Below the pieces are notes generated by a model, which made no database searches, was not told the origin of the DNA, and saw nothing but the letters and a program-made list of their open reading frames with translations. Positions 18,480 to 63,405 of a stretch of DNA of 64,000 bases are shown here, piece by piece; within the stretch, counting starts at the first letter, position 1, and the number at the start of each line of letters is the position of its first letter. The DNA is taken from assembly GCA_963681505.1 (NCBI GenBank), contig OY811973.1, forward strand, positions 11,609,983-11,673,982, read 5' to 3'. Source of the stretch: Eunapius fragilis. Taxonomy: Eukaryota; Porifera; Demospongiae; Spongillida; Spongillidae. Made by a program: the position numbers and the translations under genes.

Positions 18480-21400
18480 CTACGGTTTAATTTCATGCTC
18501 AGTGTTGCTATCACTGTCAATGACTTGAACGGTATACGTCTCTCCAGTCTGTGGGGCTATGGTGTGATGATTCACTGAGGTGGTGGAGGAAGAGGATACA
18601 GTGGTCTGGTCCTTAGAGATGTCACCATCTTCATCAGGCTATAACAAAAGGGGACAAATGAATGATTAGGGTGTTTTTTAAAGGCACCAAAATGATAGCA
18701 ATAGTTACATGTTCTGAGAATTGTGCGCATTGTAATAATACATGACTATCAAGAATATGAAGTTTTATCAAATGGAAATAATGTATGCATGCATTAATCA
18801 TGGCAACGTTTTCTTTTCAGCTGTTGAACTTCAGAAGTGGGCCTGGTTGTATAGGCCCATAGGCGGCCATTGTATAGGATCACCAGTATTGTTATCAAAT
18901 GACTCACTTCAGTCCCAGCTGTTCCTTTAACCCTCTTCTTGTCTGGAACAGTGTAGTGTCCACCCATTGGAGCCTTAACACGGACTATGGTGGAGGGATC
19001 TTGTCCTTGCTGTAAAGGTGTATACTGTAATGAGCATCACTCCTCACACTATTCCTCCCCAGCCCACCATACCTTCTTCTTACTCATGTCAGGAAGTGAG
19101 TACGTTCCAGTAGTAGTAATCTTGGCAGCTGTGGGCTGGTCATGGGGAGGATGTTGTGGGGTGTTGTCTGGTTCAGTAGTTTTCCCACAAGCCTTGTTGG
19201 ATGGCAGACACACTGTCTCATATATTCCAGTGGGAACAAATCTCTCTCCATCCGGATTATATCCCAAGAGCTCCACATTGCTGAAATGGTGAAAATGGTG
19301 GCTCTGTTAGTTATTATATATACACACTGTGCTGTAGGGATGCTCCTGTGGTATCAATGCCAAGCATCACACTAGACCATTCTTATCGTTCTAGGACATA
19401 AAGTGTATATGGATGTTATGTTCTAATAATGATAGTTTGTTAGGAATTAGTGACACAAAATGTATTACAGTACCTCTCAAGATGGCTAAGCTTGTAAGAA
19501 TTTTCATCTTTGTAATCACCATCTATGTCGGCTGTTTTGAAGGTGTAAACTAGATTTACATGGCTGCTTAATAGACCAATGCAGTAGCTTTACCTGAGCA
19601 ATGTTTAGAATTTGATCTGCGGTAAGAGCAAATCACGACCACAACCACAATTACCATGGCAACCGCCACCACCACCACCACTAATGATACCACCACAACA
19701 CCTGCAGGGAGGAGGGTGGACGTAAACTAAACCCGAGTTTGGACCATGGCTGGTGAGGCCTAGCTAAGGTCACCGTAATTAGAGGCATGTGGGTGGTATG
19801 AACACTTTCAGAGATGTGGAAGTGTGGTATCCATGCACAGCCACCTACTCCCACTCACTGATAATTGCCGTAGAGGCAGGCCATGTTATCCTGCTTGAGT
19901 TATTAGCAATGGTGGCGGTAGAAATATTGTCAAATTCAGCTGCTGAAAAAGGCGATGCATTTTATGTGATCGTCTTTTTTAAAAAGCTTGCAATGAAGCT
20001 TACAGCAAGGCACCAGTTCATGACCAGTGGAGCTACTATTATCAACTGAGCAGGAGTACACACCCCCATCACGTGGTTGGATATTGGTGATGGTCAGGAT
20101 GTTTGCAGTGGTACTCTTGTGCGCGTCATCATTAACTGAAGCATTGTCCTTGAAGAAGCTAACAGTTGGAATGGGATATCCATAGACCTCACACACCAGT
20201 TGGGCACTGCCCCCGACCTTCAGACAAGGTGGACCACTAAGACCAAGTACAAGTGGTGAGACTGGGGAGGAGAAAATTTAATAAATACATAATGAAGGCG
20301 AGGCAATAATACATACCTGGAGGTGTGACAAAGATGGCGGATGTGTTAGCAGTGCCCGACACACCAAAGAAAGAGGCAAGATAGAACCCTTGGGTGGCAA
20401 AGACAACAGAGGAGATGGTAAGAGATGCATTGTAGGTGATGGGGTCAGTTGAGGTATCAGAGACAGAGACATTGGAGATGAGGTATAGATCGCTGGACTT
20501 CACCAGAGAACCATTCATGTACCACTGGACATGGTCAGGAGGAGGGTATGAGATCACCTGTGCCGTTAGGGTGGTACTCTCTCCTTCCCTTATCACCAGT
20601 ACTGCATCGTTAGTAGACATGGGAACCATTTCTGAATGTGTAGAAATAAAATATAATCCAGTTGGCCACATATAGATGTGCTTACTTGGTTTTCTCACCA
20701 CAACTCTCCACTGCCTCAAGACTGAGCTGGTTCCATTGGATGCCATACACTGGTACATTCCAGAGTCACCCTCCAACAGGCCATATATAGTCATGGTGAA
20801 CCCACTGATCTCCATGTGTAGACCAGGGGACACCTCCTCCCCATTCCTGTACCACTTCATCACCAGGTCCACTCCACTGGCCTCGCAGGTGAACTTCACA
20901 ATAGTGCCCTCAGTGTAGACCATGCTGTCTCTAGGATGAGATACCATGACCAGGTTGGACCTTGCTGGTGGTCATAGAAACAACAGTAACAAATGGAGAC
21001 CAGAATTCTGTCACCTACATAGGACATTTAGTGTTGCGGTATATGAAACAGTTCCGTCTGGGCTGCCGAAGATTCGACATCTCACAACAGTTCCACTGTC
21101 ATTAGTGGAAACAGGGCCAGGCAGTATACCAAGAACAGTGCTCTGTTTGCTCAGCGACCCTTCCTGTAGGGATGACCCTGGGCATCTGTATGTGATGGCA
21201 TAGTCTAAAGAGATAGGATCTCTACTGGCCGCTACCACCGAGAATTGCACATTTGTGTCTCCATCATAAGCAGTGACATTTTGAAGTGGCTTGTAGACAA
21301 CCAGTCCAGACCTTGAAGGATCTGTGTGGGGGGAAAGAATAATTATGCATGTGTTACATTGAAGGTGGTCATAAATACAACGTACTGGATGCATTAAATC

Positions 21401-22824
21401 TGTAATGTGTTGGGCTGTCCACTGCTACCCTTCCCCACGCATTGGTGACTCGACAGTGGTACACCCTCTGTGCAATCGCTGCATCAATGCCAATTACAAC
21501 AAGGTATCGTCCACTGTCCAGATAGAGGAACTTGGTTCCATCGCTGGGTACGGTTTGGTTGAGGTCATCCACCCAGAGTATTGAAGGTGGAGGGTTGGAC
21601 TCTGACAGGTTACAGAACAGTGCCACACTGTCCCTGTCTACTGCAATGGAAGAGATGCTGACATTGTAGGTGACTTCTCCTTCACCTTGAAATCCATCAA
21701 AGACTTAAAAAAAGAAAAAGATAAAATTTGAAATAACAGAAAAGTGATTTAAAAGGCACTCGAATTCTCCTATTCTAACAGATTTGAGTGATAATCACTG
21801 ATTTGTTTTGCAGTGATGTTTCTTGTGATGAACCAAGCACTCACATGCATAGTAGATTTTGGCTGTTCTGCTTCGGATGGTTCCATACTGAGCACTGGTA
21901 GCTCTGCAGTGGTAGGGGATGCCCCCTCTGGAAGCATCCACTCCCTCCACCACAGTGGGTATGACCAGAGAGCCATTGACCACATGGACGTCAGGGACTA
22001 AGGCTGGGGGATCCCCTCTGTACCATGTGACAGCGGGGGAGGGGTCACCTTGGACAATACAATTCAACACGAGGTTACTGCTGTAGACTATCGTGTCATG
22101 AGGTTCAGCGACAAAGTATGGAGGGAAGCCCGATGAAGTGAAAGCTGCTGAGGGAGCAATAGTAAACGATAAATTGTATGGCAATACAGGATGTGTTTCT
22201 ATTTAATTGGATATTGCAGTTCGCTTATTGCAAAGCCACAGCTGTTGTTATCTTATGTCTATTGTAATGAACACTAACACAAACATGCAGTTACACAGTT
22301 GTCAATACTGCAACAGATGCCACTATTGCAGCTGATAAGATCTGAAATGCGAATGCAGCTAGTGTGTTAGCGAGCGCCCAAATGGTAGGGGTGTCCCGCA
22401 TATTCACTCTGGCCCAGCTAGGGGCTTGTGTGTGACGAGCCTGCACGATTGCATGGGTATTACTAATTCCTTAGAGCGGTGCGCTCGTCATGCTTTCGTC
22501 AGAGATGTCGCTGTTTTAATTGGACTGCCGCCGTCGGAGCAGATTCCCTCCCCCCCCCCCCCCCCCCCCCTGCCGATTTTGTCCCGGCCCCCGGACAGAT
22601 CAGCTAGCAGATATTGTTTCCCCTCCTCAGAAATTGCCACCCTTACTCTCAAGTCTCAAGGTCGGGGGATACTTTCCCCTGCAGCGATCGCGAATCTGTC
22701 TTCTGCATAAGGGAAAGTGCGGAGATTTATAAAGAGGTTCTATTCAGGGCGGATACAGAATTACGAAAAGGGTCAGACCAAACGAAGCTGCATGCCTGCA
22801 AGTGCGCTAAATGCATGTACGAAT

Positions 22825-22870
<46 letters not shown>

Positions 22871-23162
22871 GGGGGGAACAGAATCCATTAGCAGAACGTG
22901 TGTCCCCCCCCCCCCCCCCCCCCTCCCTCCCTCCCTGACAGGATCCGCTAGCGGGAATGTCCGGGGGGACCATTTTAGTTGGGGACATAATCCATGCACT
23001 ATCATGACACCGGACGGCTCTCCGGTTTGGCGATACACACAACAACTTGTATAGGCCATGCATGCACTAACGTAGATCTGATTATACCGAGTATCTTCAT
23101 ACGCTACGACGCGACGTACCTTGCACAGCCAGCGCCAATATCAACACGACTTGGAGCACCAT
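18480..23162 (-). CDS. Six-Ig transmembrane receptor with tyrosine-motif tail (receptor C)
   Basis: Thirteen exons join in phase: 23120-23162, 21845-22147, 21386-21703, 21015-21321, 20686-20960, 20317-20631, 20004-20261, 19859-19942, 19594-19701, 19474-19531, 19073-19280, 18908-19009, 18480-18638 (2538 nt, 845 aa). The product has a signal peptide (MVLQVVLILALAVQ), then six Ig-like domains, one per exon, at about residues 15-115, 116-221, 222-323, 324-415, 416-520 and 521-606. Typical pairs are LNCIVQG with YHCRATS and FTCEASG with YQCMASN. An N-glycosylated stem and a valine-rich membrane helix (about 635-658) follow. The 187-residue tail has tyrosines at about 710 (GIYETV), 750 (YSLPD), 778 (YTVPD) and 828 (ETYTVQV) and no kinase domain. 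Introns between Ig exons are mostly phase 1. Ligand unknown; probably an adhesion or recognition receptor. Confidence 0.85.
22549..22923. repeat. Cluster of C and G homopolymer runs in intron 1 of receptor C
   Basis: A C run at about 22549-22570, a G run of more than 40 bases at 22826-22876 broken by a single A, and another C run at 22903-22923. They sit in the first intron of the six-Ig gene. Long glycine or proline frames over this stretch are artefacts of the runs. Confidence 0.9.
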
Positions 23163-25560: not shown

Positions 25561-25567
25561 TATGACT

Positions 25568-26420: not shown

Positions 26421-27351
26421 ATATATGTGATCATAATAGCCTACATGGGTACCAATCGCCGCCAACTGAAACGCGAACTGAGGTAGGGCTACACCTAATA
26501 TAAAAACAAACTTAGTGCTCAAAAGCGGTCTCTGCCGGATCACCGGTTGGACCAAATGTGACAGACAAAATCGGTCCGACCATGCAAGTAAAAATACAAT
26601 ATGGGTGGAGGGGTCGTAATAGTAGAATAGAACCATACACGTCACTCATAATAATTACATGTATGCATAGAGCACGAGCGTTTTGTATAGACCTATAAAC
26701 TCAGTGTGCATCAATGAACATTCAGTGTTTCGGAGACTAGCTGGCATGGGCTGTGATATGATTTTATATGGCACGTCGTCGTGCAATCTGTTAAATACCC
26801 TCAAGAGTATAAGAAGCAGGCTTCTTCTTCTTATTTAAAATTCTACTAGTACACACAACATGCATAATATGCTCTTTTCTAAATCGTCGTTGTTAATGCG
26901 GAGAACTGAACAAAATGAATAGCGATTTGTATTTTTAAAAGCCTTCATTCACAAGGCGGAATACAAGTTTGCAAACCGAAGCTTGTGACAAACGCCGAAA
27001 AGCATCAATATTTGATCACCATCGTGATTTCGGCACACGAAGGAAATAATCCTTCGGGCTTCGGCGAATGAATGCAGAATACTAATCTGAGGTGTTATGC
27101 CATTTGCACGGACGTACGTATTGACCATTGGCAGTATCGATTAAAGTCTTATACCTATTTCACCATTTTTAAAATACCGCGCTCACCCGCCGCGCCCGCG
27201 AGCTTTACAATAATCATATTCATAGGCACCTGGTGGATTCTGATGGATCCTCCTCCAAATTCCAAAGCCAACTAAGGTGTGGCGATGCTTAGCCAGCCAG
27301 CGCCAAGCATAGATCGGAATCCAGTGCAGAACTAGAGACTCAATAGTAGCG

Positions 27352-28302
27352 ATGGGCAAGGCTACCCAAAATTGTACTACCGTTGGTGTGATGAAACCAA
27401 TCATAATCTTTTATTTCACTTTTTCAATCGCAGCTGCGCTAATCTACATGGCCACCATCATAATCATCGTCCGGACACGCGCTTACAGGCAATTTCACCA
27501 CCGTCTTTCGCTTTATCTATCGGTTGGCGGCTGTTTGCGCATCTTGGCACTATGGATATCAGCTGTACCGGTCGACTACCAAACACCAGACGACAGTCCT
27601 ATATCGGTAAGAGAGGGTTGGAATGGATTGTGCGCTTTTGGAGGTTTCGTTAACCAGTACACGGGGTTTCTCCAAACCTTTACCGTGGTATGGATATCGG
27701 TCTACATTTTCTTTGCTGTCGTATTCTTGAAGCAGCTGACCCAGCGCAAGTACGAAATGACAGGTTTGGCCATTGTCGCTCTCACTCCGTTTCTGCTTAC
27801 CTTGGTGCCGTTTATTAGCAAGGACTCGTACGGATTATCGCAATCGATCTGTTGGATTGCCGAACCTTCCTGTGAAGGTCAAGGTGTGACATTTATTTAC
27901 TCGCTGGCCATAGCTACCGTGCCGCAAATTGTGCTGACTCAATTCGGACTCCTGCTGATGTCAATAGCGATTATTAGTTTGCTTCGAAGGATATATCTGA
28001 AAATATTCGAGCATCACTACTGGATAGTGGTAAAAGAAATCCTTCCAGTGATGTTATTTCCATTGCTCTATTCGTTAGTCTTCTTTGGGAGAATGATAGG
28101 GCTCATAATTGTTGGAAAAAACAATCCTGGATTGGTTGGTACAGTTACCATTGCATTGATTCTCACGGCGTGCTCTGTTTCTCTTCCAATATCACTACTA
28201 TTACGGCCCAACGTTCGCAAGGCTCTGTCTCTCTTCTGTGACTCGCGCGTGGACGAAGAGGAAACAGAAATGATTAGCGGCGGGTATTCGAAATTACAAT
28301 AG
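27352..28302 (+). CDS. Seven-transmembrane receptor, single exon
   Basis: A 316-residue intronless frame with seven hydrophobic helices at about 15-42, 49-74, 91-125, 134-154, 179-214, 227-254 and 261-287, a short N-terminus and a 28-residue tail. Cysteine NGLCAF at the start of helix 3 and SICWIAEPSC in the second outer loop could form the conserved GPCR disulfide. After helix 7 the sequence reads SLLLRPNVRKAL, like the helix-8 entry of cAMP-receptor-like and adhesion/secretin-like GPCRs. There is no DRY or NPxxY motif, so it is not rhodopsin class. The chosen ATG gives a full helix 1 with no upstream exon needed. Coupling and ligand unknown. It stands alone between transposon remnants. Confidence 0.8.
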   Translation: MGKATQNCTTVGVMKPIIIFYFTFSIAAALIYMATIIIIVRTRAYRQFHHRLSLYLSVGGCLRILALWISAVPVDYQTPDDSPISVREGWNGLCAFGGFVNQYTGFLQTFTVVWISVYIFFAVVFLKQLTQRKYEMTGLAIVALTPFLLTLVPFISKDSYGLSQSICWIAEPSCEGQGVTFIYSLAIATVPQIVLTQFGLLLMSIAIISLLRRIYLKIFEHHYWIVVKEILPVMLFPLLYSLVFFGRMIGLIIVGKNNPGLVGTVTIALILTACSVSLPISLLLRPNVRKALSLFCDSRVDEEETEMISGGYSKLQ

Positions 28303-28398
28303 TATATTTGTGATAAACTGATTATAAGTTACATAATAATTATTTATCAGCACAATTAAGGTACAAGATACAAGAGAATATTACAAAACACTACACAT

Positions 28399-29485: not shown

Positions 29486-29689
29486 TCTGAGGATGGAATT
29501 TATAACTTTGCTTTATTACACGTTCATGTGTTGCATTGTAATCAAAAATAATAATAATAACGCCCATTCATATGTAGTCACGTGATACATTTGAAAATAG
29601 CTAGCTGGTGTAATTAGTAAATTAAACCAAGTACCAAATAAAGTGCTACTCGCTTTACTGAGTTAATTGCCCGAACAGTAGTCTCTGGC

Positions 29690-32109: not shown

Positions 32110-34619
32110 ATGGGCCAGCGTTATGCCTTTGTAATTGCAGCCTTGTTCTTTATGGAGTGTAACGGTGGTGAGTTCAGCCAACCACAATGCAGTCTACTGG
32201 ACCATTGCACTGACGTGTACTTTCCACACAGCCACGATGATCATTATTTTGCACATGCCGTGTATACATGTATATTTCGCCCTACCCTATTCATATCCAG
32301 ATGGCCCTCTCGTGTCCAGTCTTGAAGGCAGAAGGGCGGCTTTGCCTAGAGAGCAGCTGAAGTTTTCTTGCGCACTTAGCGGGAACACGCTGGTGTGGAT
32401 AACTTCGCTGATCCCTACCAGCAATTCTGGCGACTTCATCGGATTTATTCGCTCGGTCGATGGTGAAGGAACGTCCTATACACTCCCGAGGGTGGGATTT
32501 GTGGCCGTCCTTACTAGCAAGACGAATGGTGTAATGAATTCCACGCTTCAGTTTACAGTCAACCAGACGTTTAATGGAACGGACATAGTATGCACAAACG
32601 GAGCTTTCTACCCTGCCTTCAGCAAGACAATACTCATGGCAGGTATAGCACCTCTCAGATTATTAATTGCACTGATTAATTGCCTATTACCCTTACCTTC
32701 CCCTCCCTCCACACTCCCTATCCAATCATGCGCCAGTCATCCCAGAAGCTCCCGTGAACGTCAGCATTGATATATACACTCTGAGCAGTGCCACAGTTCA
32801 GTGGGCAAGCCCGCTGTTTGATGGCCTGGACAGCGTAGTTTGGTACGCGGTCCGCGTGCTCAGCGGAGGGGTCGCCGTGGCAAACATTACATCGAGCAAT
32901 GGTTCAAATTGCGTCACGATACCGTCGCTGCGAGCCAACACTCCGTACACTATTGAGGTGAGGGCCGTCAACGGGGTTGGATCAAGCCCCGGAGCCTCGC
33001 GTGATTTTACCATCGTACCAGAAGGTAACTTAACGACATCATGTAATAGTATGTACGTGTATGTAAACCCGGTGATGTTTTGTGTCATTGCATTAAACTC
33101 TTTTTAGATCCTCCTGCGCCTGCGAACTTTACTGCGCATGAACGCTGCGACAAGACCGCATCGTTGGTTCTAACGTGGCAGGTTAGGTAGTGAAAGTTTT
33201 GATCAGTTCCGCCTATTCTGCACCTTTAAACAGCGCGCACGTGCATGAGGGTAAATGCATTATGTTGATATGGTTGAGGTAGCATTATAACCCTCGATAC
33301 TTTTCTTCGGTTGTCGCAAACCACAGCTCCAACCTCTCTCGGACCTAGTGCCTCCCGTGATAGCAGTAGTCGTGAACATCACACTAGAACAGCCGGTTCA
33401 ACTGCATCCTAACGCTTCAACTTTTACTATTGATAACGTCGCCAGTCGTACAGCACTGTCCATAACTGTTTATGTAAAGACGGGAACATCAGAAAGCAAA
33501 GGCGCTAATTTGCGTATAGGTAAGTAAACAGTTTGATTGGTTGTGCAAAGTGTACTTGATAACACTAGATGTTTTTGAAATCTCGTCCAACTCACACCTG
33601 TACATAATTGTGCATGTGTGCAGATAAAGGAAAATGCACTGCTGTCATCTCATGCATCCCCAATAAAAAAATAATAAAATGAAGACAATAACCTAATAAT
33701 TCAAAGCATGACTTTAAAAGTTTCTGAATCAAACTGCTTTCTCACACTCGTAAAATATATGTATTGCATTGATAAAGGTGTTTTCAAATGATGACATCCA
33801 TATTTTTATCCCAATGGTGAGATATTACCTGCATTCTTATTGTAATCACAACCAAATTAAATATTTGTTACAGGAAGCAATTGAGTATGATGTGAGCAAT
33901 TTTACAATGGCTCTTCTCCCCCCCCTCCCCTCCACCCAATCCACCTCCAACCCTTTCTCTGTGCTTGCCATATTCAATCCATCCCAGACATCATCAATCG
34001 TATCACATCTGCACAAGTGGTTGTAGCAGACACCACTGCATCCATTCTCTTCACCACCTGCTATTCCAACAGAAGCACTATCTTAGTGCGGTACCAAATG
34101 TGTGATGGAAATAAGACTAACATAAGCAACAACAGCAGTCCTTCTGAAGTAACCTCGGGAAAAGGGAATGGAGCCTATCAAGTGAGCATCTTCTCCCTTT
34201 CCCCAAGTACCGCATACTGCTACAGGGCTGTGTTGTGCGACATTGCCACGTTCCAGCCTATAGGGCCATTAATCGAGGGAGTCTTTGTGACAAACCTGTC
34301 ACTGTCCACTGTAAACAGTGGACTACACACCAACACTTCTATTTCTGCAGTAGGAGCTGCAGACTACAGCATCACTATCGGTGCAGTTGCAGGTACGTTT
34401 CTAATCTGCTTGCTAGTCCTTCTGCTTGTGGTCGCAGCGTTTTGCTACCGCCTAAAGAAGAGAAACACAAAATTCTCAATCGAATTTCAAAGGTCAAAGC
34501 CACACAATTATTGCAGTCCATTTACACCAGCTGATGTTGAAGCGGTTGAAACAATTGACAACGTTGCTTATTGTACCGTAAAGATTGCAAACATTTTAAA
34601 ATCAAATCCAGAGCCTTGA
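32110..34619 (+). CDS. Ig/FN3 transmembrane receptor with ITIM-like tail (receptor A)
   Basis: Six exons join in phase: 32110-32167, 32301-32642, 32746-33024, 33108-33181, 33327-33519, 33988-34619 (1578 nt, 525 aa). Domains: signal peptide (MGQRYAFVIAALFFMECNG); a divergent Ig-like domain to about residue 133 (FSCALSG, DIVCTNG); an FN3 domain to 226 (TVQWASP ... YTIEVRAVNGVG); a second FN3-like domain split by an intron, to 315; and a membrane-proximal Cys-containing FN3-like domain (LSPSTAYCYRAVLC). The membrane helix is at about 446-469. The 56-residue tail has NYCSP (Tyr about 490) and VAYCTV (Tyr about 510). VAYCTV fits the ITIM consensus (S/I/V/L-x-Y-x-x-I/V/L) of vertebrate inhibitory receptors. 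Paralogue at 43961-46348 on the other strand. An AATAAA at 35359 may be its polyadenylation signal. Confidence 0.88.
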
Positions 34620-38588: not shown

Positions 38589-41233
38589 ATACTCCAAGTA
38601 TGGGAAACAATCAAGGAAAGGAATTCAAAATCCATGGGTAAGACTTTATCATTGTTGTTGTGAGTGACTGTTTATTGACTATAAAGATATGAACTGCAAA
38701 CAATGAAGAGCTTACCTAAACCGAACGTAAGTGCAAATTTATGTAATAGTTGGAATTCTCTATATCTGCGTGCATGTGTATGTTGCTATGGATAATTAAT
38801 AGGAAGTAGTTGTGTGCGTACTGAAACCTTTATCAGGAGCAGCTTCACTTATTACAGAATGAAATATCTGATAGTAAACCATTCGCATTGGTGCAATTTT
38901 GCCTTCATCAAAGTAATGAGTCAAAATTAATTGTAGTGCTTGATTGGTGATTTCAATGCTAACTGGTGTGCTGGTATAATTTTGGTGCATTAACCCATGT
39001 GGAGGCAGACGCTGTCTGTTGCAAAATCATTTGAGTCTATAAAATGGTATGTGAATGTTCTATATTGCATAACTAGTTTATTTTAGTCCATATGATGAAA
39101 TGAGTACTGGACTGAAATGAGTGATCTGAATGGCAGCATCGTAGCCATAGTTTTGTTTCATCAAAGTGAAATCCCTGCAATCCATCTTACTAGTCTAATA
39201 CTATAATTTCGAACGTCCGTACGTACGTACGTCCGCGTAACTCATTTATATACTCGGCCTAGCACCTATTGGTTGCTAGGTATGTACGCGTACCTCCCAC
39301 ACAAAAGGCGGTCGCAATGACAGCTGGTTTCCACTTCACACTTGATTTCAAAGAGGGGAGGGGGGGGGGGGGGGGGGGGGGGGACTTCATAAGTGCCGAA
39401 GGAATAAATGCAACGCTATCGTGGTTCACTCTCAAGACGAGTGACAGACAAGTCTCATCGTACAGGCCGAGAACATGTAGTTACTATCTGAAATTGCGCG
39501 GGCATAGTGGTTGCGTAGTAACCGTATGTTAGAACAGGTGATAGATTATATATGCTACATTTGATAAAACAGCCGGTAAAAAAAGAGGAGCTAGGAGGTA
39601 GACCAACTGTTCATCTGGCAAATGAATAGCGAGAAGAATAACAGCGAGATGAATAATCAGCCCGTGATTTTTCACGGGGACAAGCTAGTGTATTATTAAT
39701 ACCTAGAAGTGAAATTTTTTTTTCCATTAGATCTTATATTTTTTAGATAAGAACTTTTCACTATATCCGGATTCCACATAATGGAACTGTTTTAACATTA
39801 TTGGATGAATCATTGCTTTTCAACTCACCCAATTATGTTACTGATGACAACCAGTTATGGTACATAGATGACCAACCAGATGGTTCTTTTATGATTGTTT
39901 CCAAAAAGAACAGAAAGGTATTGGCCTGTACTTTGGAAAATGGAAATGACATTGTTATTCAAGAATGCAGTGGTGAAGAGACCCAGAAGTGGTTGGTAGA
40001 AAATGACCAAATAGTGTCTTCAAAGCACCATACTGTAATTATTTCAAAACAAGGTGAGATTGAATTGCTGCTTATGGTTTACAAGTTGTGAAGTGGGCCA
40101 CGTAATCTATGGATTAAAATTGGGTTTGGGTAGGCAGGGGTATGTTTCCATATTGTGCTGAAGAAATGAATTCTTTTATGCTTTGTATACAAATTGTGGA
40201 ATTGCAGAATGGCAGAATAAGGGGCACACAATCTATTGTATGCCCACTGTTCTGCAGTCAGCTGCCAAATTGAGAGTTGTTCAAGGGTTTCTCAGTTAGG
40301 CTGTCAATCTAGAAAACTCGGAGTTATAGGCCTGCCCATTGCACAATGCACCTACATTAAGCATTGGTCAGCTCAAATATATCTGCCATGTACATTCAGT
40401 CCACAATGTATGACACATGGAAGCTTGCTAATGCATGAGCAGGTGCCATGTAACATATTCTGACTATTCATATGTTGGCCCACAACAGCCTCGTGAATTG
40501 TAGTAGTAACAGCAGTATAATCCCTACTGCTTTCATGAACACTACTTGAACTGGGTTACATGTAACCGTGAACCACCTGCAGATAAGGTTACCCTATTAG
40601 TTCCCACACTACCAGCCTTTACAGCTGTAACAGGGCTATAGCATATGTGGGCTGTGCCTCAACATTCTACTGGGGTCTGACTAGTTCTTCACATGACAGA
40701 AAAATGTATACTGAGCGTGCAATAAAATTGTGCAAGTGTATATAGCATCTAAAATTCAAACAAATGCAAACCACACACTGGACTGAAATGATTGCATTTC
40801 TTTTTTTCAGTCCATGATGCCAGTCTACATCAGATGCTTATTCAATGGCTCAGTGTTGGAACTCACAGCAGATGGAACAGGTGTGGAATGTAATCCTCTT
40901 GACAATAGCAGGTCTGGATACCAACAGTGGTATATTAAGTATCTGACAGGGTTCATAGGTGGAATATTTATGATAATATCCAAGAAGAACGGAAAGGCAC
41001 TGCAGATGGATGGTGAAGAAGTGAGGGCTGTGGAGTTGAATGATCAAGATGAATGTCAGCAATGGAGAAGATGTGAAAAGAATATCCTACCCATGGAACA
41101 GAACTTGGCTGATGAGTTAAAGATGCTGTGTGTTGTGTGGGATAAGAGCATGCATGTATTGGTCCTTGAAAATCCTACGACACAGAATGCCTGCTTTGAA
41201 CTGCAGCATATTGCAGCAGATTCATATTTTTGA
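38589..41233 (+). CDS. Beta-trefoil protein, third diverged family member (3' part)
   Basis: Confident exons are 39747-40053 and 40824-41233; they join in phase 1 and end in a stop. The first encodes a ricin-B-like trefoil (HYIRIPHNGTVLTLL ... NQLWYIDDQPDGSFMIVSKK ... TQKWLVEND). The second encodes another (VYIRCLFNGSVLELT ... YQQWYIKY ... GIFMIISKKNGKALQM ... CQQWRRCEK). The pattern 'Q-x-W, acidic, F-M-I-V/I-S-K-K-N-x-K' repeats between them and matches the copy 1 and 2 proteins (DGSFVIISIEYGKALGC). A candidate upstream exon at 38589-38637 (YSKYGKQSRKGIQNPW) has a good donor and the right phase and could be the juxtamembrane segment. No membrane helix or start was found. A Helitron-like element occupies the intron. 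Whether it is membrane-bound like its relatives is inference. Confidence 0.65.
39194..39688 (+). mobile_element. Helitron-like non-autonomous element
   Basis: The 3' end has a GC-rich hairpin CCCGTGA-TTTT-TCACGGG (39661-39678) followed ten bases later by CTAG and then T, the arrangement expected of a Helitron terminus. The proposed 5' end TCTAATACTATAATTTCG starts with TC. The base before it is G rather than the expected A, so the left boundary is uncertain. A G run lies at 39359-39383. Confidence 0.5.
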
Positions 41234-42528: not shown

Positions 42529-43071
42529 TTAATTTCCACGAGCCTTTGGAATAGACACCGAGAGAAAATCCACCGTTGTTCCAGCGGCTGTTGTGAAATT
42601 GAAACATGCATGCTTGAATAAAGGCGCGCATGCCATTTGAAACTCGAACGGAGTGTTATAATAATTGAACCTAACCTTTTGATGCAGCCTTTAGCAGACC
42701 GACAGGGCTGAACAGGACCTGGGCAACCTTGCAGCCATACACGTTCGGGAAGCACAGGAGACCACACTGGATCGGCATCAGGTCCAGGTCCTTGGTCATA
42801 TTGGAGATCAGCAGCTGCTCGACGTGATACCCGCCTCTGGAACACTCGTCGATGACGTTTCGTGACACAGTCAGCCCGTAAACGGACTTCAACTGACTCG
42901 GAGACGTATACGGGGATATTGAGACCTTGCGCAGCGTTGCTGGTAGGACGATGTACCACGTGAGGATCGTCGTTTCACTCGTGCACTGCAGCGAGCAGTT
43001 GAACACGGCAACCTCCCCAATAGATGCGCTCTGGATGCTGGGGCCAGCGATAATCTGAGAACCAGCCCAAC
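42529..43071 (-). CDS. Single-Ig protein gene, incomplete model
   Basis: The Ig exon at 42676-43071 (132 codons, phase 1 in and out) is a close paralogue of 60820-61221. It shares LRKVSISPYTSPSQLKS, YGLTVSRNVIDEC and TKDLDLMPIQC. Cysteines are plentiful (FNCSLQC, QCGLLCF), as in the partner. A phase-compatible terminal exon may be 42529-42587 (AAGTTVDFLSVSIPKARGN then stop). The signal-peptide exon was not found: the adjacent MPSLFKLTLYSQHVQ is a poor signal. It could be an intact secreted or membrane protein with missing exons, or a decaying duplicate. It lies downstream of receptor B on the same strand. Confidence 0.55.
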
Positions 43072-43960
43072 CTTGCACATGTTGGGAATAAAGAGTTAGC
43101 TTAAAAAGTGATGGCATCTTTGTTGATCGGTTTACTGTACGAATTGTAAGTTTTACTAACTTTGCCAAAAACTTGCAGCTTCTATCACCATCATACAAAG
43201 TGACAAAGAAAACATACTGTATTTCTTTGCCTTATGCGGAGGAATGTGACGTGCTCGTTAACACACATGCATACCGTGTTCGTGCAAAACAAAAAAAAAA
43301 TTGTTTACATGAGTGTGTGGTTGGTAGCCTCGTTTCCAGACTAGGATATGAATTATGTAATTAGGGCGCGAACCGAAGTCAGTACATTCACACATTCACA
43401 TGATTAGTGTCTCCCAATTGCAAATTTACGCGACTGCTATTATTCGTTTCGTTTAAATTAAAGAATCAAAATTGTTCCCAAAACACTATATTATCATCTT
43501 TGATCTTTATCCTCGTTTTGAATGGGGCGCTGATTGAATGTCTACTGTGTAAGCATCATAGTATCGCCAACACCGCGATCAGTGTATTAGATAACAGAGC
43601 AGCAATCATTAGGGACGATATGCGCTGGAGAAGTTATCACATGAACATATTTTCTGTAGAAAAAAAACATGTATATGGATCCACATTTTAGCTCAGTTTT
43701 CAAAAACAGTTGGAGAGGAAGGGAGGAGGTCGATGTGAGGAGGCTTTACACATAAACGCATTCAGTAATTCGATGTTGTTTGACTAAGTGCTTTCTTGTA
43801 GTCTTCGTTTAATAGTATAACATGTAAAACTGGAATACATGCATGCATGAAAGTCAGTGAATATACATACAATGATAAATTGTTCGCATAAGTGACTATA
43901 TTTGCTGTTATATATATATTGAGGGTAAAAGTTGTTAATATATTAAAAGAACTGCACGAA

Positions 43961-46348
43961 TCATTCGACTGAAAGAGTTTTCCGAGCTGCGACAGCTGCG
44001 TACGCACTGTTAGTTGAGATTTCGAGCACAGGATCATAGATGTGAACATAGTCCTCCTCTTGGTGAGGCAGTTGTGAGGGTGAGGGAAATTCGCCTAGTT
44101 CCTTGATGCATAGTTCATTGACCGCTGCAGGTACTTGGATGGTTGCACTATCGGACCATTTCACTTTCATTATGCAGATGCAAACTGCGGAAGCTAGAAG
44201 CATTCCGAGGAGGAATGTACCCACACCCGTTCCGGCCATGACCGGGCCGCAATCTGTCAAGGAAGAAAAAGCAAACGTGAGTTTATCCAATGCTCAATGC
44301 GTGTGTGAACATGTAGGCATACATGTAGCTAGCTCACAGGAGGAATTAGTTTCGTTCTTGCGGTATGCGATCGCCTCTTGCAACTGCTTCTGGGCTGTCG
44401 TGAATTGTCCATACGTTTGGCGACAATTCGAAGGTGTTTGGAGCACAAGAGCAGCTCTGTAGCAGTAAGTTGTGTTAGGTGAAAGACCCACTAGACTAAC
44501 CCGGTACTCTGGTAAGGAATTTATAGTATACCCAACAGACGCCCGCTCTTCCGCAAAAGCGCTATTGCAGTCCCTGAATAGGACCGCACAGGCGGAGTCA
44601 GCCGTGTTAATGCCACACCCTCCACACACAATCGAAGAGTCGGTGCTACCGACCGACAACACTCGGGTCGAAAGAAGGCAGTCTGTATAATCTGCATAGT
44701 GTAAAAAGCATGCATGCGTGACGCACGAAGCGCGTATATATATATACATAACATCTCGTTGTTGAGAACTAACCTGTGTAGGCAGTAGGGTTCTTCACGC
44801 TTTCTTGCACCTCATTGAACACCGATACTGTCGCAAATATGCATGTGCCTGCTGGAACGCGTTCGATATTGTAGAACTCGGTGGTTAGAGGCAATTTTAC
44901 ACGAACTGAGCCACTGTGGCAACCAATTGAGTAATTTAAATACGTGAAAAGCAAGGAGGGTGTCATCACTGTCAGTCTTTTTGGAACCTGTTCCGTGGAA
45001 ATAAAATATAACCGCGCGAGCATATATACAGAAAACAGTGGATACTCTTAATTTAATTATACCTCCCACACGATTGAAGCGCTCAACTGCCCGCTACTTC
45101 CGGTGGCGCAGAATGTCTTGATCGCAAGGTTCGAAGGAGCAGCCGGCTCTGCATGTGTATAATATATATAGAAAACGAGGGGGGAAATATTTAATATATT
45201 CCGATTGAATGCATGCACACGTAACATATTGCGAGGCCGGTAATTATGTATATATATATATATACCTGTACCTTCAGGTACAATGGTGAAATTGTACATG
45301 GCTCCCGCGGGGCTTACTCCAACCCCGTTGACTGCCCTGACCTCGAAGGTATACGGGATGTTGTAACGCAGCGATAGTATTGTGGCAGACATCGAACCGC
45401 CATCCTCCGTGGACCGATTTGCAATTATTACCTGCGGGCCACTCGATAGGCTGAATAAATAAACTGTCACGTGGTCCAGGCCATCAAATTCAGGATAACT
45501 CCACTTAAGGGTAGCGCTGTTTAGTGTGTAGTTGACGAGACTGACGTTAGACGGCTGCATCGGGACACCTGCAATAATGAATAACATGCGCATGCAGTAC
45601 GTTAATAGGTCAGGCGTTGGGCATTAGATAGTTTCTTCAGCTGCATACATGCATGTACACAAACCCCTGCGAGCTATCTGTAACTATAATGAACATGTTA
45701 TAATACCGCGTGCATTTATATAATATGCATGCATGCATGCAGCTTGCTCTTATAGGTAACTATATTGTATAATATAATTTATACATGCATGCATGCACCA
45801 TGTAAATATATATTAATCCAGAGTGCGGGCGGGGGGAGGGGGGGGGGATATACCTGCAATTAATAGCGTGCGGCTCATGTACGGGAGGGGAGTTACGCTG
45901 CTATTCGAGCAGCTGATGACTGTTCCGTTAAGGTACTGAGATGCGGTGAATTGCAGCGACGAATTCATGGTTGAGGCTCCCATTTCTGTCAATGCGGCTG
46001 TAAATCCGCCGTTGGTCTGGGCATATCCGACGACGTCGCGGGGTCTGATGAAGGCGATGTATCCAGAAGCGAAAGCCTGACTCGTCCATATCAATATATT
46101 CCCCGTCACGGAACACTTGTAGACCACGGTCGTTTCCGGGAGAGCTGCCGCTCCTTCGAAATTGACCGTCAGCGCTGTTCCTTAGAAAGCATGCAAACAC
46201 CGGTAGGGCAAGGGTCAGACCAGTAGATTATTGTGACATCCAGACCAACACGCTACAATTGGCTGATTTCCAGCGGCCTACCTTGAACGGTTCGGTGGAA
46301 AAGTATAAGCAGTACCACTCCAAGCATCCCCTTAGGAGCGTCACTCAT
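43961..46348 (-). CDS. Ig/FN3 transmembrane receptor with ITIM-like tail (receptor B)
   Basis: Seven exons join in phase: 46282-46348, 45854-46180, 45272-45568, 45063-45148, 44774-44987, 44338-44682, 43961-44253 (1629 nt, 542 aa). Domains: signal peptide (MLGVVLLILFH core); an Ig-like domain to about 131 (YKCSVTG, ISCSNSS); FN3 to 230 (TLKWSYPEFDGLDHV ... YTFEVRAVNGVGVSP); a split FN3-like domain to 330; and a Cys-rich membrane-proximal domain to 445 (LSPNTTYCYRAALV). The membrane helix is at about 451-474. The 68-residue tail contains DYVHIYDPV (Tyr about 514 and 518) and SAYAAV (Tyr about 530), which fits the ITIM consensus. Order, exon layout and many residues match receptor A at 32110-34619. 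The TM exon is separate here but fused to the membrane-proximal exon there. Confidence 0.88.
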
Positions 46349-50039: not shown

Positions 50040-50108
<69 letters not shown>

Positions 50109-51024: not shown

Positions 51025-51075
<51 letters not shown>

Positions 51076-51150: not shown

Positions 51151-51220
<70 letters not shown>

Positions 51221-53699: not shown

Positions 53700-53759
53700 T
53701 GAAAGAGTGCGTTACACTGATATATAAACATATACACCTAGACTACACACAATGTACAC

Positions 53760-56335: not shown

Positions 56336-57778
56336 ACCATGTGTGATACATCTGATCTTGCGCTTTTACAGATATGCAAATTTTTACACTGAGCAAATAG
56401 AATAAAACGTTTTAAATTTCGGAAAGGTTGATCTTACTGACAGCAATTGCAAGATCAATGGATGATGCTGTGGTCTGTGGTATGATGAGCGGGAACCCCG
56501 AAGGCACATGGCAGCTGATCTTAGGAGAGAAGCTCAATTTGCAACTAAGCCAGAATAATGTTTTGCTGTATGGCTGCTTCTGCTTTCATGCTATCTGTGA
56601 CGCCATGCAGTCTCTTGAATACAACAGTTGCAGTAGATCACAATCCGCCTGTGGTTGAATAGACCAATGGGTAAAAAGAGCCAAACTCAATTTCCCGAAT
56701 GCGTTCTCTTCATATGCACGTTTCTTTTCCAGTTCGGCGCGTCGGTAGCACTGTGGTAATGGAACATTGTGTATTGTGCAACAAAAAGGATTGAAGACCC
56801 CAACATCAAAGTAAGTTCTTTGTCTATTATGCCCCAGCAACAATGCGAGAGGAGCCTCATCATATGAGATAGACGCGTACGAAGTCGCTTAGCAACGTAA
56901 AAACTGCTCGAAAAGCAAGATCAAACCCTTTACTTTGTTCAAGGCATTTCGTGCCGAACAATATATATAAGCAATTCAAATATAAGCACCGTTGTTTTAA
57001 CCCCGTGAACTTTTGGTAGTGCATGCTGCACGTATTCGCGCCAAGTGAAATTAGCATTGTCTGTTGGCGAGGTCTATACGCACTACAAATGTAGGTTGCG
57101 CTTTAGGTAAAAACACCGACGATATCTTACATAAGCCTCCTTTAACCTATAAAGTCGTTGCTATGGAAGTAATGGCCATAATGCTAGCTAGGTATTACAG
57201 TAGTGCGTGCGGACTGCGATGTTACGGGATCGTGATGTTGTTGTTTTGCTCAAATCAATGCAGACTATACATACAAGTAATGGCTAAAGAGCACTAACAC
57301 GATATCAAGGCTTTCTTTTAGTAAAGGGAAACAACCTGCTACTAGTATTTTTCACCACCATGTGGCCAGGGACTGCCATAAAAATTGACGGAGGCAGTGG
57401 GGGAAAGATATTGACACTATCTTTGACAATGAAGGATGTTACTGCGATGCTTTCTACAGTTCATGTCTTGCTAAATGCTTTTAAACCGAGCAATAGCATT
57501 TCTGATTCCAGAGTAGGTGCGTTTTAACGAATTTTGGGTGTATAGATTCAGCACCTTGCTCCCCCCCCCCCCCCCCCCCCCCCCATTAGACCACAACCAG
57601 CTGATGTCCATTCCAACATGTGGTCCTCAAAGTCAAGAAATGGAAACAAATGAATGTGCTTTCTAACTACATTTAAAATTGAGGTTTAGGCAGATAGAAA
57701 GGATGATGATGAATCCAAAAGCAACTTCATGCAGTTTGTTTGGATGATCAAATTCCGAAGTATACAAATGGATCATGA

Positions 57779-57810
<32 letters not shown>

Positions 57811-60670
57811 CGCCCAGAGATAATATGGGGTCATTGCAGCAAAAAAAGAACCTAGAGCATATTTCCAGGGAAGGAGCATCAAAGTTGACGCGTGCAATTA
57901 AAACATACGCGTAATTAAAATTCCAGGCACTGTAACTCCATGACGGACAGACTAATTTCCAGTGCGTAAGAAGAAGTCGTACAGGGCATAAGTGCCTCTT
58001 CTAGGTCCCGTTTCGCTGCCACGATCCCATGTACAGGTATCGATGTATAATATCTCTATTACATCCTGTGATATCCAAAATGCATGCTTAAGACCATGCA
58101 TGTCACTAATAGTAATGTCCATAAATGCGCATATTACACAAATTATGGTTCACCTTGATGGAACAACAGACACAACAAGCCAAGAGCAAGTCACAATCTT
58201 TTTGGAAGTGGGTGGATGATCCATATAATTTAAGAGTTACACGTTGGTTCTATCACCACTGCATGCAGCTAGTTAATTGATAAGAATGAACTTGTGGGGT
58301 GCAATGCCACAATGCATGGGCAAGTAATATGAATAAGAGATATACGTTTCTGTTGGTTGAACACGGGGAATTAGACAGAAACTGTGCTCCCTCCGGTTGT
58401 ACATCACATGATTGCCGCTTGGGTAGAGGTTTAAATAGGGGGTCTTATTCAGTCTAAGTGTCGTGCACGTGCTGTTTAAACCTTTTTTGTGTAATGTATG
58501 CTGCTCAGTCTCTTGTGATGAGCACCGCAATTGTAGAACTGTCCTCATTGTGCAGACAGATTACAACGGATTCTCCTTATTAACAAGCTATACCAGATCA
58601 TGAGGTGGAAGTGAACACACAGACTGAACTATTGTTTAGTATAGGTAGCGTTTTCTTGGGCACAGATTTTTTTCCCAAAGGTTTTTTTCTGTACATCAGG
58701 TGTTTCCCCGCTCCGTGTATTATTTTTGCCTTGGTGTTTGTGATGTCTTTGTGGTGTTTTTGTGGTTGCTTTGTGTTTGCAGGCGTGCACAATGACGCTG
58801 TACATATGTGTAGTTAAGGGGTAGTGCTGTACTGGGAGCATGAGGAGGGAGTGATGGTAGTCTGCACTCACTGTTATGGATTATATATGTTGTGCTCTTT
58901 GTGTTCAAATTACGACTATAATTAAGTCAGGTTAGAGGTTCTTTTTAAAATTGTGTTTCCTGTATAATAACACTATTGAGCTGAAGTTCCATCATCATAC
59001 CGTTTTGGCATCTCTGTTGTCTACTGCTTCAGTTACACATTTTAGACATCTCGTTTTTCTTGGTAAATATGTTCCTTCCGCTACTTCAAGATTGATTCTG
59101 CCAATTATTAATCTTCTCCAAAAGAGGTTATTGGTTAGCATCATTTCACATAGCCTCCAAAGCCCTGACAGTCATCTGTAACACCACTTGGCATTCAGAG
59201 ATGCCACAGGGTTCCGCTTGAATTATCTCAGTGATGTAGGATCATCTCCCCAAAGAAAACTGTGTGTTTTCATTCAGAGGCTGCTACTATACATGCGTAC
59301 GTGTAGGAAGCCATCAAAGACAGCTATAGTGACTTACATCTGAGCCGAAATTTGTAAGCAAATTCCTGGAGATATATATTGATAAAACTCTAGCTCATTG
59401 CTTTTAAAGATTTCTGAAGAGTAAATGAATTTGTTTGTAGATTTATGTGCTTTCGCGAAACGTTTGCATGTTTGTGCACATCTTAATCAAATTTTTTAAA
59501 ATCGTGACATTTAGATGCCTAATGAAATTGCATGCAGGAATCATTGCATGCCACTGTAATATACATATGGACTTTATTCGACAGCAATATGAAATAATAA
59601 ACGTCATGCACACGCTCGTTCAATATTGGTTTAATTACATCGCGTGACACCATGCAAGTTCTCAAAAGGCGAGCGAGTTCAGGAACTATCAGCGATCACT
59701 TTTCAAGGCCAAAAACCTTCATAAAAGGTTGGTTCCGTTTTATTTCTATCGATTTGGTGATACGCGTGGTATGAGGTTATAGCTTGCATCCCCTGTATTG
59801 AGAACAATCTTGCATGTAATCCGTCTGGCCCCGTGATAAGGAACACCGGCGATATAAATAAATGCTCCATCATACCGTGGGTGCAATAGGATTCATTTAG
59901 CTTTACCTCGTTTTATGTCATTTATAACATAATCATGTAAGACAAAGTAATCTAATGGTTTTTACTGCGATCCATTTTGTGTAAAGATAGAACACGAAAG
60001 GGCAGCACCAAGCAGAACCCACGTGTAGGTGTATTGAGAGTTAAATACGATGTAGAGTTGCTGAGATTCTACGTCTAAATTGCAGAGTTTGTCGGGAAAC
60101 AACAGGTCAGGCCAACGAGAAGAGTTGTACTCCCTGCACGGGTCTACATGTTGTTACCCCTAGCATACCAAGCTTCTCTTTATAGCGTAACTTTCCCACC
60201 GTGTCAAGCTGCTTAAATGAATCCGACAGTTCAACCATGCATATTCGTGTATCTCATTAACGGCGACTCCTTTCCCGTTAGTGTCACACAATAGTATATT
60301 CATATATTGCCGTCTGATGCCGGACAGTCCGGCTTCCTCTCCACTGCAACAAACATAGCCTTTGCCTAGGTGGAATTGTATAGACCTTCCGCCGTCTATG
60401 CTCGAGTGTATATGCGTCATGCGCGCGTGCGCATGGATCCATTTAATGACACTACATTGTATCACTGCATGACGGAATAATTGGTATATTCCCCTTTTTC
60501 ATTTTTCATGTGAATACTCCGTAATCCGCCGTACGTCAGGGCCACTATTATGCACTATCCGCCAGCTTTTTACGGCGCTATCACGTGATTAAAAAAGGTC
60601 TATTAGAGAGTGAAACAACGAAACTCATAGCAAATATTCTAGCGGTCCTCGGGCAAAACGCGGTAGGTCA
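56336..60670. other. No gene recognised; runs and dispersed repeat D copy 2
   Basis: C runs at 56269-56300 and 57560-57584, a TA run at 57780-57810, and repeat D copy 2 at 57865-58030. Frames such as 56428-56658, 58273-58548 and 60160-60465 show no domain I recognise. The last 100 bp form the 5' flank of the single-Ig gene. Confidence 0.5.
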
Positions 60671-60673
60671 ACC

Positions 60674-63405
60674 ATGTCTGCCACTCCACTTCTCGTCGCG
60701 CTTCTTATTTCCACGAAGTCAGGTCTGTCTTGGTTTTAATTAATCCATATATTGTCATCATGCGTTCGATCATTCTGTATATAATAATTTATTTTATATA
60801 TAATTTTATTTCTCGTCAGCGATGGCAGCCTCCCTAATCGTTGGGGGACCTAACACGCAAAGCATGTTAAGCGGTGATGAAGCGGTGTTCAATTGCTCCC
60901 TGCGCTGCAGCCAAGTGTCCATGGTGCTCACGTGGTACCTTGTGTTACCGCTGACCTTGCGCAAGGTCTCAATATCCCCGTATACTTCTCCGAGTCAGTT
61001 GAAGTCCATGTACGGGCTGACTGTGTCGCGAAACGTCATCGATGAGTGTCCCATTGGCGGGTATCACGTCGAACAGCTGCTGATCTCAAATATAACCAAG
61101 GACCTGGACCTGATGCCGATCCAGTGCGCAGTTTTGTGCTTGGGAGATGGGTGCGGTTGCGGCACGACTTCCCAGTTACTCTTCAGCACCATGGCAGTGG
61201 CCAGAGTTATGGGTCCATTAGGTTAGTTTGACTCTAATTGATCTGGCAACAGATTATTTTCATCCATTGTACAATTCGCTATCAATAGTATATTTTTGCG
61301 TATGCGCGCAGTACTTATATAAATTCATTTTTCATTCAATACTCTCTCTCTCTCATCCCACCCCCCGCCCTCTCTCTCTCCCTCTCTCTATAGTTACGCC
61401 AACACTTTCCACTTCAAGCACATCTGGAGTAACATATGCTCCCATCGCACCGTCTGGTAAATGAGTACATATATTTTGCATTTATCACTATAAAATTTAA
61501 TAGTTATATACCAACGTAATAATCTAACACTAATCAGAGCTAATGCCAGTGCTTTAATTTTAAGTTCAGGCTTTAGGTGGTCTGCATGAGGGTGGAGGTT
61601 GCATTTGTTTGCATGTGTGTACTTGCATTGCCTTACATAATATCCTGTCCAGGGCTGCATGTAGGATAAATGGACATCCTTAGACCACTGTTTGTGTTGT
61701 GTATTCTGTATCAATATTATAAACTATCTTATAAAATAAATAATAATCAGAGCTAGCTCCAGGCCATTCTGTCTAGAGTTGTTCACTGTTTATGTTTATG
61801 TACCTATAGTTGTAATGCTCATCCACAACTGGAAGTTGGGCAACCCTGCAACAGTAGATCTTTTGCATCACATCCCCGCTTAGTTACAAAACCCTTCAAG
61901 TTAAGTGTGTGATGCCAGGTTCAGCAGCAATGCAGGCAGAAAAGAGGAAGCACCACAGTAATGATGCAAAATGTCTAGAGTTAGGCTGGGCATGCATCCC
62001 TCAGGTGGTAGAATCCTTTGGACGTTGCGGACCAGGAGCTCAACGTAGTCTCTCTGTGATTCTGCCTACGCTTCCTGTCTCACTATTCCTGTGCAGCTTT
62101 TGTTGCTCATCTGTTTTATAATAGGCCTCTACAGCATGCCATCAACCAACTCATGATCTGGTGTGCTCGATCTGTCTCTCAGCAAGCTCTGTCGAAAAAT
62201 TTGGAATGCCACCGTTTAACGTTTTGATAGGGGGCTTCCTTTGTAGCTGACAAAGCTCAAGTGTTGTCTATTTCAGATTCTCAAACAGCTGTGGTTCCTT
62301 CCACTAGCTTTGAGTTTGCACTTTGAACCTAATGAGGAATTTCATGCTTCAATCATTTGGAGGTTAGGTTTAGACACATCAGGAGGATCCTCTGTTCTGA
62401 GAAAGCATTGGACCCCTTAGCTTGTACATCATGGAGTTGCCTGCAGTCATGGAGGTCATGTTTACCACTCATCACAATTAACCTATACTGTCTACGTGAT
62501 GTTGATATTGTGGCTGATCTTTGTCGCCATGCTCAGCTGGAAGCAAAAATTGAGATGGGTAATGGTCTGACTCCTGGCCTGATAGCAAATGATTCGCCTG
62601 CTGCTTTGGTTACACCCCCACCTGCCCCCGCCACTCTTCGGGAATATATCTGGTGTTCACAATGTGGGCATTGGCACACATTGACACACATTGGCACACA
62701 TTGGCCACTACAAATATGTGCCAATGTTGTGTGTGAGTAACACACATTGGCGCACATTGGTTCCTACCGATGTGCGCCAGTGGCACAAATTGGTCCCTTC
62801 AGATGTGTGCAAATGTGCACCCTTGGCACATATTGACGCTCATTGGCAGAGATGTATGGTCCCCAACATGATCAATTGCCAGAGCTATTCTGGCTAGAGG
62901 GCTCAGGTCTAGATACCTCTGATGTGTCCAAATTTTGTCTTTTTTGTAGTCTTTAGTAGTTTAATATAGTTAGGCTGTTAAGTTCTTACACTCACCATTA
63001 ACCATTTTTAACCAAAAAAAAAAAAATTTGGTTTATTTAAATTTGGACAGCATGCATCTTAGATTTATACGTGTGGTGTAGTTAGTTTTGACGTGCCTAC
63101 CCTAACCCTAACCCAAAGAATAATCATAATAATATACTTCAACGGCGCGCATGCCAAGTTGAATCTGCCAACCATGTATTGATTGGTTCCGCGCGTTTAA
63201 ACGTACGCATAATTTTACTTTATTGCTTTTACGTTTCTTTGCTACAGGATCAGAAATGTACAACTCATCAGCAGGAAGTAAAAAAGTCTTCGTCGGCCTC
63301 AATATCCATAACCAAACCTCCTTAGCTTCCACTCAGTCACCGCCTTTTGAAGTTCTTACGATTGCGATTTGTGCCCTCATTGCTAGGTGTGTCATAACGC
63401 TATAA
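60674..63405 (+). CDS. Single-Ig surface protein with hydrophobic C-terminus
   Basis: Four exons join in phase: 60674-60722, 60820-61221, 61394-61456, 63248-63405 (672 nt, 223 aa). Signal peptide (MSATPLLVALLISTKS); a Cys-rich Ig-like domain to about residue 150 (FNCSLRC, VLTWYLVLP, IQCAVLC); a Ser/Thr-rich linker (PTLSTSSTSGVTYAP); then NNxS/T-type sites and a C-terminal FEVLTIAICALIARCVITL that ends at the stop. A hydrophobic end with no tail after it suggests GPI anchoring, although an internal arginine is unusual. Alternatively the last exon splices at 63386 (AG|GTGTGT) to exons beyond the window, making this the start of a membrane helix. Intron 3 contains a retroelement remnant. Confidence 0.7.
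61880..62640 (+). mobile_element. Reverse-transcriptase retroelement remnant in an intron
   Basis: Plus-strand pieces: KCLELGWACIPQVVESFG (about 61960-62030) matches the C-terminal end of the element at 53760-56335. A second piece at 62300-62640 resembles the 'LGLDTSGGS...LDPL..H...C.HGG' and 'MGNGLTPGL' region of a related element, apparently from a different copy. Both are broken. Confidence 0.5.
62650..62860. repeat. Degenerate short tandem repeats (GGCACACATT)
   Basis: About ten imperfect units built on TTGGCACACA and its variants. No coding significance. Confidence 0.8.

Follow-up and report, generated by a model that had tools for sequence, protein, structure and literature searches.

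Immunoglobulin-type genes of three families, one of them gene-converted, on a chromosome stretch of the sponge Eunapius fragilis

A stretch of 64,000 nucleotides of the Eunapius fragilis genome (contig C3:11609983-11673982, hereafter the window; the genome spans 218.9 Mb on 24 contigs) carries several genes of immunoglobulin (Ig) and fibronectin type III (FN3) type, and the question it raises is whether these form one recognition locus. A preliminary description had proposed a single cluster of related receptors with tyrosine-motif tails and had compared it with the Hydractinia Alr complex and with vertebrate paired receptors. Spliced models of five genes, here named A, B1, B2, C1 and C2, were built by hand from the DNA sequence and are predictions; they are open where genes had been proposed, with GT-AG boundaries at 26 of 26 introns across A, B1, B2 and C2, and they do lie on both strands (A, B2 and C1 on the minus strand, B1 and C2 on the plus strand). 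Ectodomain introns are in phase 1, as is usual for Ig and FN3 modules, the exception being one phase-0 intron each in B1 and B2. A Pfam scan of the five models, listing families to E<=1, returned no kinase family, as had been claimed. The Ig-type genes are genuine, but they come from three separate families that share a chromosome stretch. The strongest result is that the family of single-Ig genes, family C, is gene-converted; next comes the B1/B2 receptor pair with the motif-bearing tail of B2. The earlier sequence observation was largely right and well placed, and the grouping into a single locus found no support.

Gene conversion in the family of single-Ig genes

Family C is represented in the window by two genes, whose exons and converted tracts are as follows.

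42529-43215, minus strand: gene C1, with a signal-peptide-like exon at 43161-43215, an Ig exon at 42676-43071 and a possible short exon at 42529-42587
42767-42931, minus strand: conversion tract in the core of the C1 Ig exon, hand-mapped from alignment columns
60674-63405, plus strand: gene C2, with a signal-peptide exon at 60674-60722 and an Ig exon at 60820-61221
60960-61124, plus strand: matching tract in C2, hand-mapped, 18 kb away and in opposite orientation
61394-61456 and 63248-63405, plus strand: possible further exons of C2, an S/T-rich linker and a hydrophobic C-terminus

Searches in which 21 of 21 candidates were scored for each of two queries returned the identical 18 places from either query, so that the family comprises 18 Ig exons. 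Six are on contig C3 at 11.38-11.67 Mb, five on contig C3 at 13.80-13.83 Mb, five on contig C8 at 2.39-2.50 Mb, one on contig C22 and one on contig C15, which puts 16 of the 18 genes in three clusters and the whole family on four contigs. The family tree follows the clusters, requiring 5 changes where shuffles require 9.9, and 0 of 200 shuffles gave a value as low.

Gene conversion has replaced the central part of the Ig segment in some C copies with that of other copies. C1 and C2 are paralogues with 68-69% identity in the Ig exon; codons that specify the same residue in both differ at 5 of 50 positions inside the 165-bp core and at 19 of 33 outside it (p 1.8e-4, 100,000 permutations). Because synonymous sites outside the core are near saturation, the pair is old and its core recent, and the view of C1 and C2 as a recent duplicate is rejected in favour of a conversion mosaic. 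All 153 pairs of the family were tested at 2,000 permutations, a depth at which the threshold of 0.05/153 is unreachable, and four pairs, which are not independent of one another, were rerun at 100,000. Three of these four pass the threshold, C1/C2 being joined by C8_2436/2490 (p 9e-5) and C8_2479/2490 (p 1e-5), and the conversion tracts overlap with differing borders. By clade, the proportion of differing same-residue codons in the core and outside it is 5/50 and 19/33 in clade I, 46/300 and 78/289 in clade II, 59/208 and 123/264 in clade III, and 1/52 and 5/69 in clade IV. Weighing against a general role of conversion, the fourth rerun pair, C3_11380/11501, fails the threshold (p 0.0023) and clade V (contig C3, 13.80-13.83 Mb) is reversed and has no core effect, with 16/114 differing inside and 10/120 outside. 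Furthermore, dN (nonsynonymous divergence) is below dS (synonymous divergence) in the 22 closest pairs listed among the 153, which gives no sign of diversifying selection.

The extent of similarity around the exon helps to delimit the process. The copies C8_2389 and C8_2436 are 91.9% identical over the exon with nothing alignable in flanks of 1.5-2 kb, and C3_11380 and C3_11501 are 90.5% identical over the exon with no alignable flanks, while C8_2436 and C8_2479 can be aligned for kilobases at 85-89%. As similarity ends at the exon between copies with dissimilar flanks, conversion confined to the Ig exon is the best account, with copying of exon-sized pieces as the alternative. That selection on the nucleotide sequence, for example on splicing signals, and not conversion made the C1/C2 core uniform is very improbable, since overlapping cores do vary little in several clades but, in comparisons across clades, same-residue codons are different in the core as often as outside it (1925/3329 against 2147/3790), a result that disfavours a general constraint on the core and on which synonymous constraint was rejected as the cause.

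The C exons appear to be of Ig type by their Cys/Trp pattern and by weak profile matches. All 18 exons share four invariant Cys and one invariant Trp, among them C25, W38 and C102, which would correspond, in an assignment of strands made here, to the B-strand Cys, the C-strand Trp and the F-strand Cys. A profile of the 18 rows reaches Robo2 in the PDB at E 3.7e-5, a value that adds up several repeats while no stretch passes by itself, the T-cell receptor V-alpha domain near 0.003 and PD-1 near 0.02. Other comparisons count against the assignment: the I-set and V-set families each occur in only 10/18 exons at E<=1 (best values 1.9e-4 and 2.1e-3) and no match is marked as exceeding a cut-off, C1 and C2 match no Ig family below 0.05, and the family compared with the Ig domains of gene A gives a probability of 23%. 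The unrelated ribosomal S19e and MetW families each match 3/18 exons at 0.003-0.005, and as they reach similar values, weak Pfam values alone prove little for these exons.

Around the Ig exon the gene structures differ between members. In 13/18 members a signal-like exon with a phase-1 end is found 127-197 bp upstream, a count for which the chance rate was not computed; two more members have such an exon at about 260-400 bp, and three have none nearby. For C1 this exon moves the upstream end, previously set at 43071, to 43215. The possible third exon of C1 has no support from the family, and the linker and C-terminal exons of C2 have no significant match in the relatives compared. In four members on contig C3 at 11.38-11.50 Mb a stop directly follows the domain and the donor at the shared place is missing, on which grounds they are read as secreted. 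Twelve other members, C1 and C2 included, keep a donor-like G|GT at that place and may have further exons, and two members are unjudgeable. By these signals one clade would be secreted and the others perhaps anchored. In the copy at 757 kb of contig C22 the frame seems, by eye, to be broken close to where the Ig exon ends, which makes this copy a pseudogene or reflects a sequence error. A published description of the family was not found at the level of titles and abstract openings, which is no proof of absence.

The receptor pair and the dispersed six-Ig gene

The three larger genes of the window are all predicted models.

32110-34619, plus strand: gene B1, 6 exons, 528 amino acids, 57-residue tail
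43961-46348, minus strand: gene B2, 7 exons, 545 amino acids, 69-residue tail
18480-23162, minus strand: gene A, 13 exons, 844 amino acids

B1 and B2 have a common plan of signal peptide, Ig-like first domain, FN3 domain, further FN3-like regions, transmembrane segment and tail. The fn3 family is matched in one stretch of each (E 4e-13 in B1, 1e-9 in B2), and their FN3-like regions match PF16656 slightly under its cut-off. Of 500 aligned residues the two proteins share 177, which bears out their description as paralogues, and the genes form an old inverted pair. A 237-residue query from B2, covering the first domain, the FN3 domain and the start of the next, gave five matches in the genome, all within B1 and B2; by this query the pair is private, with only two copies in the genome. 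Conversion between the two genes was considered and rejected (p 0.099). The first domain carries a Cys-Trp-Cys pattern and is Ig-like by that pattern only: the Pfam scan to E<=1 assigns it to none of the Ig families, and it gives an hhalign probability of 1% with the Ig domains of A, and reaches the antibody heavy-chain variable domain only at E 0.08-0.2, all of which weighs against a firmer Ig assignment.

Tyrosine motifs, defined from general knowledge, were assessed in the tails by shuffling, with six motif types in three tails and p values left uncorrected. The B2 tail contains EEDYVHI, YDPV and SAYAAV; its tyrosines fit YxxPhi in 3/3 cases (p 0.011), and both a relaxed spacing resembling the immunoreceptor tyrosine-based activation motif (ITAM) and the hemITAM-like EEDYVHI reach p 0.001. 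On the other side, a strict ITAM is absent from B2, and the sites resembling the inhibitory counterpart of this motif (ITIM) are within chance, both SAYAAV of B2 (p 0.20) and the single VAYCTV of B1 (p 0.11). No tyrosine motif in the tail of A is above chance, and the motifs of A and B1 were dropped as evidence. Of the tails formerly grouped by their tyrosine motifs, only that of B2 exceeds chance.

Gene A encodes a signal peptide, six Ig domains with one phase-1 exon each, a valine-rich transmembrane segment and a 185-residue tail. Ig_3 is matched in five stretches (E 5e-48), fn3 is not among its Pfam families at E<=1, and its best matches in the PDB are DCC, titin, Robo and contactin. The earlier count of three receptors built from Ig and FN3 domains is rejected on this account, the spliced models standing and the combination of domains being confined to B1 and B2, where the Ig part has the standing given above. 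Its sequence places A as one copy of a dispersed family of six-Ig, adhesion-type genes. A search of the genome, with 55 of 381 candidates scored, gave at least 103 matches, which, when those less than about 5 kb apart are grouped and the locus in the window is included, correspond to at least about 29 loci: at least 16 on contig C9 (four of them single-exon matches), four on C3, three on C1, two each on C7 and C12, and one each on C8 and C19. The other three loci on contig C3 are distant relatives with 35-48% identity. Between A and two compared copies, domain 1 is 83% and 72% identical and domain 3 is 47% and 53% identical, so the first Ig domain is the most alike between the compared paralogues.

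Further observations concern other copies of the A family. Between A and the copies at contig C1:14774001-14782000 and at 6.747 Mb of contig C9, dS varies from exon to exon over 0.43-1.43, and exon-wise conversion might account for this unevenness as well. The copies at contig C1:14774001-14782000 and contig C7:6004501-6012500 are 99.96% identical over 7.9 kb, to the ends of the compared stretch; 1-kb probes set at distances of about 10 kb on one flank and 8 kb on the opposite flank of this pair found nothing or only short repeat-like matches. Either the assembly is at fault or the identity stems from a recent copying event, segmental or transposition-like. Two A-family stretches of contig C9 at 6.747 and 6.808 Mb, separated by 61 kb, share 99.98% identity over 5 kb.

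Genomic setting and interpretation of the stretch

Genome-wide profile scans scored the best 150 of 1195 Ig_3 candidates and the best 150 of 1588 FN3 candidates, and in each case 0 of the best 150 lie within the window. Many of these matches are held by arrays on contigs C10, C7, C1, C2, C12, C21 and C22. As judged from the positions of the best 150 matches, with no formal null, the co-location of Ig and FN3 domains is not exceptional for this genome, and the window by itself is no special Ig hot spot. Extensive arrays of Ig and FN3 exons, several of which score equally, occur on contig C10 at 1.02-1.37 and 5.6-8.4 Mb and on contig C2 at 15.8-17.1 Mb, and these may be stronger candidates for a recognition locus than the window. 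Closer by, tandem Ig-Ig-FN3 exons were seen by eye on the minus strand at contig C3:11719001-11728000, 45 kb to the right of the window, and five of the best 150 Ig_3 matches, at 11.72-11.74 Mb of contig C3, are part of this exon array. Calx-beta repeats are a mark of the sponge aggregation factor. They are absent from the five gene models and, with 150 of 325 candidates scored, have at least 125 matches in the genome, mainly on contigs C4 and C5 and none of these 125 on C3. In a study of grafted Amphimedon, aggregation-factor adhesion genes are without significant enrichment (PMC5450542).

Comparison of the three families revealed no close relation between any two of them in sequence. Their distributions in the genome also differ, with at least about 29 loci for A, two copies for B and 18 copies on four contigs for C, which argues for three families and not one cluster. 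Clustering and duplication, which the preliminary description had stressed, do hold for the C family, a clustered family with local duplication and gene conversion that has members in the stretch, but not for a single recognition complex. The most probable reading, held with some reserve, is that the stretch combines members of three Ig/FN3 families of a compact animal genome, with no close relation seen between them: a gene-converted Ig family of recognition or adhesion type (C), a small receptor pair (B) and a dispersed copy of A. The C family would evolve by local duplication and by conversion that stays within the Ig exon and often within its core; the divergent N-terminal part and the region of the last strand would carry the differences while the shared core is kept uniform, and the proteins may bind, outside the cell, to other cells or to microbes. 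Ligand binding by B1 and B2 would lead to phosphorylation of tail tyrosines and recruitment of SH2 proteins, in B1 at one ITIM-like site and in B2 at an ITIM-like site and a hemITAM/ITAM-like pair. The sequence itself shows the gene structures, how large the families are and where they lie, and the conversion; we infer transcripts, surface location, binding, signalling and a role in recognition.

It is also quite possible, although less so, that this is an ordinary stretch of adhesion and innate immune genes, brought together by the abundance of Ig and FN3 genes in the genome, with C proteins as microbe-recognising or secreted effectors, a view that overlaps the three-family reading. The 1195 Ig_3 and 1588 FN3 first-look candidates and the arrays on contigs C10, C7, C1, C2 and others fit it, as do the secreted C clade and the resemblance of A to DCC, titin, Robo and contactin, but it leaves the motif-dense tail of B2 unexplained if taken alone. 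An allorecognition locus here is possible, and a true complex of the Alr kind, in which linked, polymorphic, homophilic receptors with ITIM or ITAM tails decide between fusion and rejection, is unlikely. Linkage of Ig-type genes, duplication, conversion in the Ig exon, the tail of B2, and the presence, at most about 360 kb away, of four further C members and the Ig-Ig-FN3 exon array would suit such a complex; the three differing genome distributions, the presence of only two paralogous receptors, the dense Ig and FN3 arrays elsewhere among the best 150 matches of each type and the Calx-beta arrays on other contigs speak against it. Slightly more doubtful still is the proposal that the C family constitutes a hitherto undescribed system of recognition in an early-branching animal, a small, clustered set of single-Ig and partly secreted proteins with Ig exons reshuffled between loci by exon-confined conversion, and with the neighbouring B1 and B2 as ITIM/hemITAM receptors for C proteins or for self. 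The 18-gene C family with its measurable gene conversion and the B pair with its motif-bearing tail are concrete candidates for sponge-type self/non-self recognition genes.

Other features of the window lie beside these families. The beta-trefoil gene of the preliminary description is confirmed by an open frame at 39747-40085 that matches the ricin-B beta-trefoil (E 4e-12). Frames at 5163-7409 and 17346-18199, about 12 kb apart, look near-identical by eye and are perhaps a duplicated trefoil-like gene; four pieces of them that were scanned gave no Pfam match at E<=0.01. A remnant of a hAT-type transposase is present at 2322-2696 (hAT dimerisation domain, E 8.5e-5), and frames at 1244-1933 and 13376-15190 look alike by eye. 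A single-exon open frame of 319 amino acids at 27343-28299 has several hydrophobic helices and resembles a G-protein-coupled receptor by eye, with no Pfam family at E<=1.

Comparison with known recognition systems

The Hydractinia Alr genes are described as one family of 40-41 clustered Ig-type genes, some with tyrosine motifs in their tails (PMC11999971, PMC12065747, PMC11876637). The window shares with them the clustering of Ig-type genes, and the tail of B2 has tyrosine motifs above chance, though no strict ITAM. It differs in holding three families and FN3 domains in B, and in that its multi-copy family consists of single-Ig proteins, some of them predicted to be secreted; the likeness drawn earlier would need a clustered family of paralogous receptors, and the mutually paralogous receptors here are two, with 35% identity. 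According to PMC12065747, the fester co-receptors (FcoR) of Botryllus are type I Ig-type proteins of 520-610 amino acids with tails bearing an ITIM, a hemITAM or a core tyrosine motif. Their domains are one Ig of variable type, one sushi and a pair of Ig domains of C2 type. B1 and B2 resemble them in length (528 and 545 amino acids) and in the motif-bearing tail of B2, and differ in having one Ig-like domain together with FN3.

Gene A is similar in its best PDB matches to the multi-Ig adhesion receptors DCC, Robo, contactin and sidekick, and unlike them it has no FN3 found by the Pfam scan and is one of at least about 29 loci. Vertebrate-type paired receptors combine closely similar ectodomains with opposite, activating and inhibitory, tails. 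The likeness to them is not sustained, as the ectodomains of B1 and B2 are not closely similar and only the 177 of 500 residues noted above are identical over the whole proteins. Conversion among duplicated copies is found in Dscam exons, Sp185/333 and FREPs, and the C family likewise converts among its duplicated copies but consists of whole small genes distributed over four contigs.

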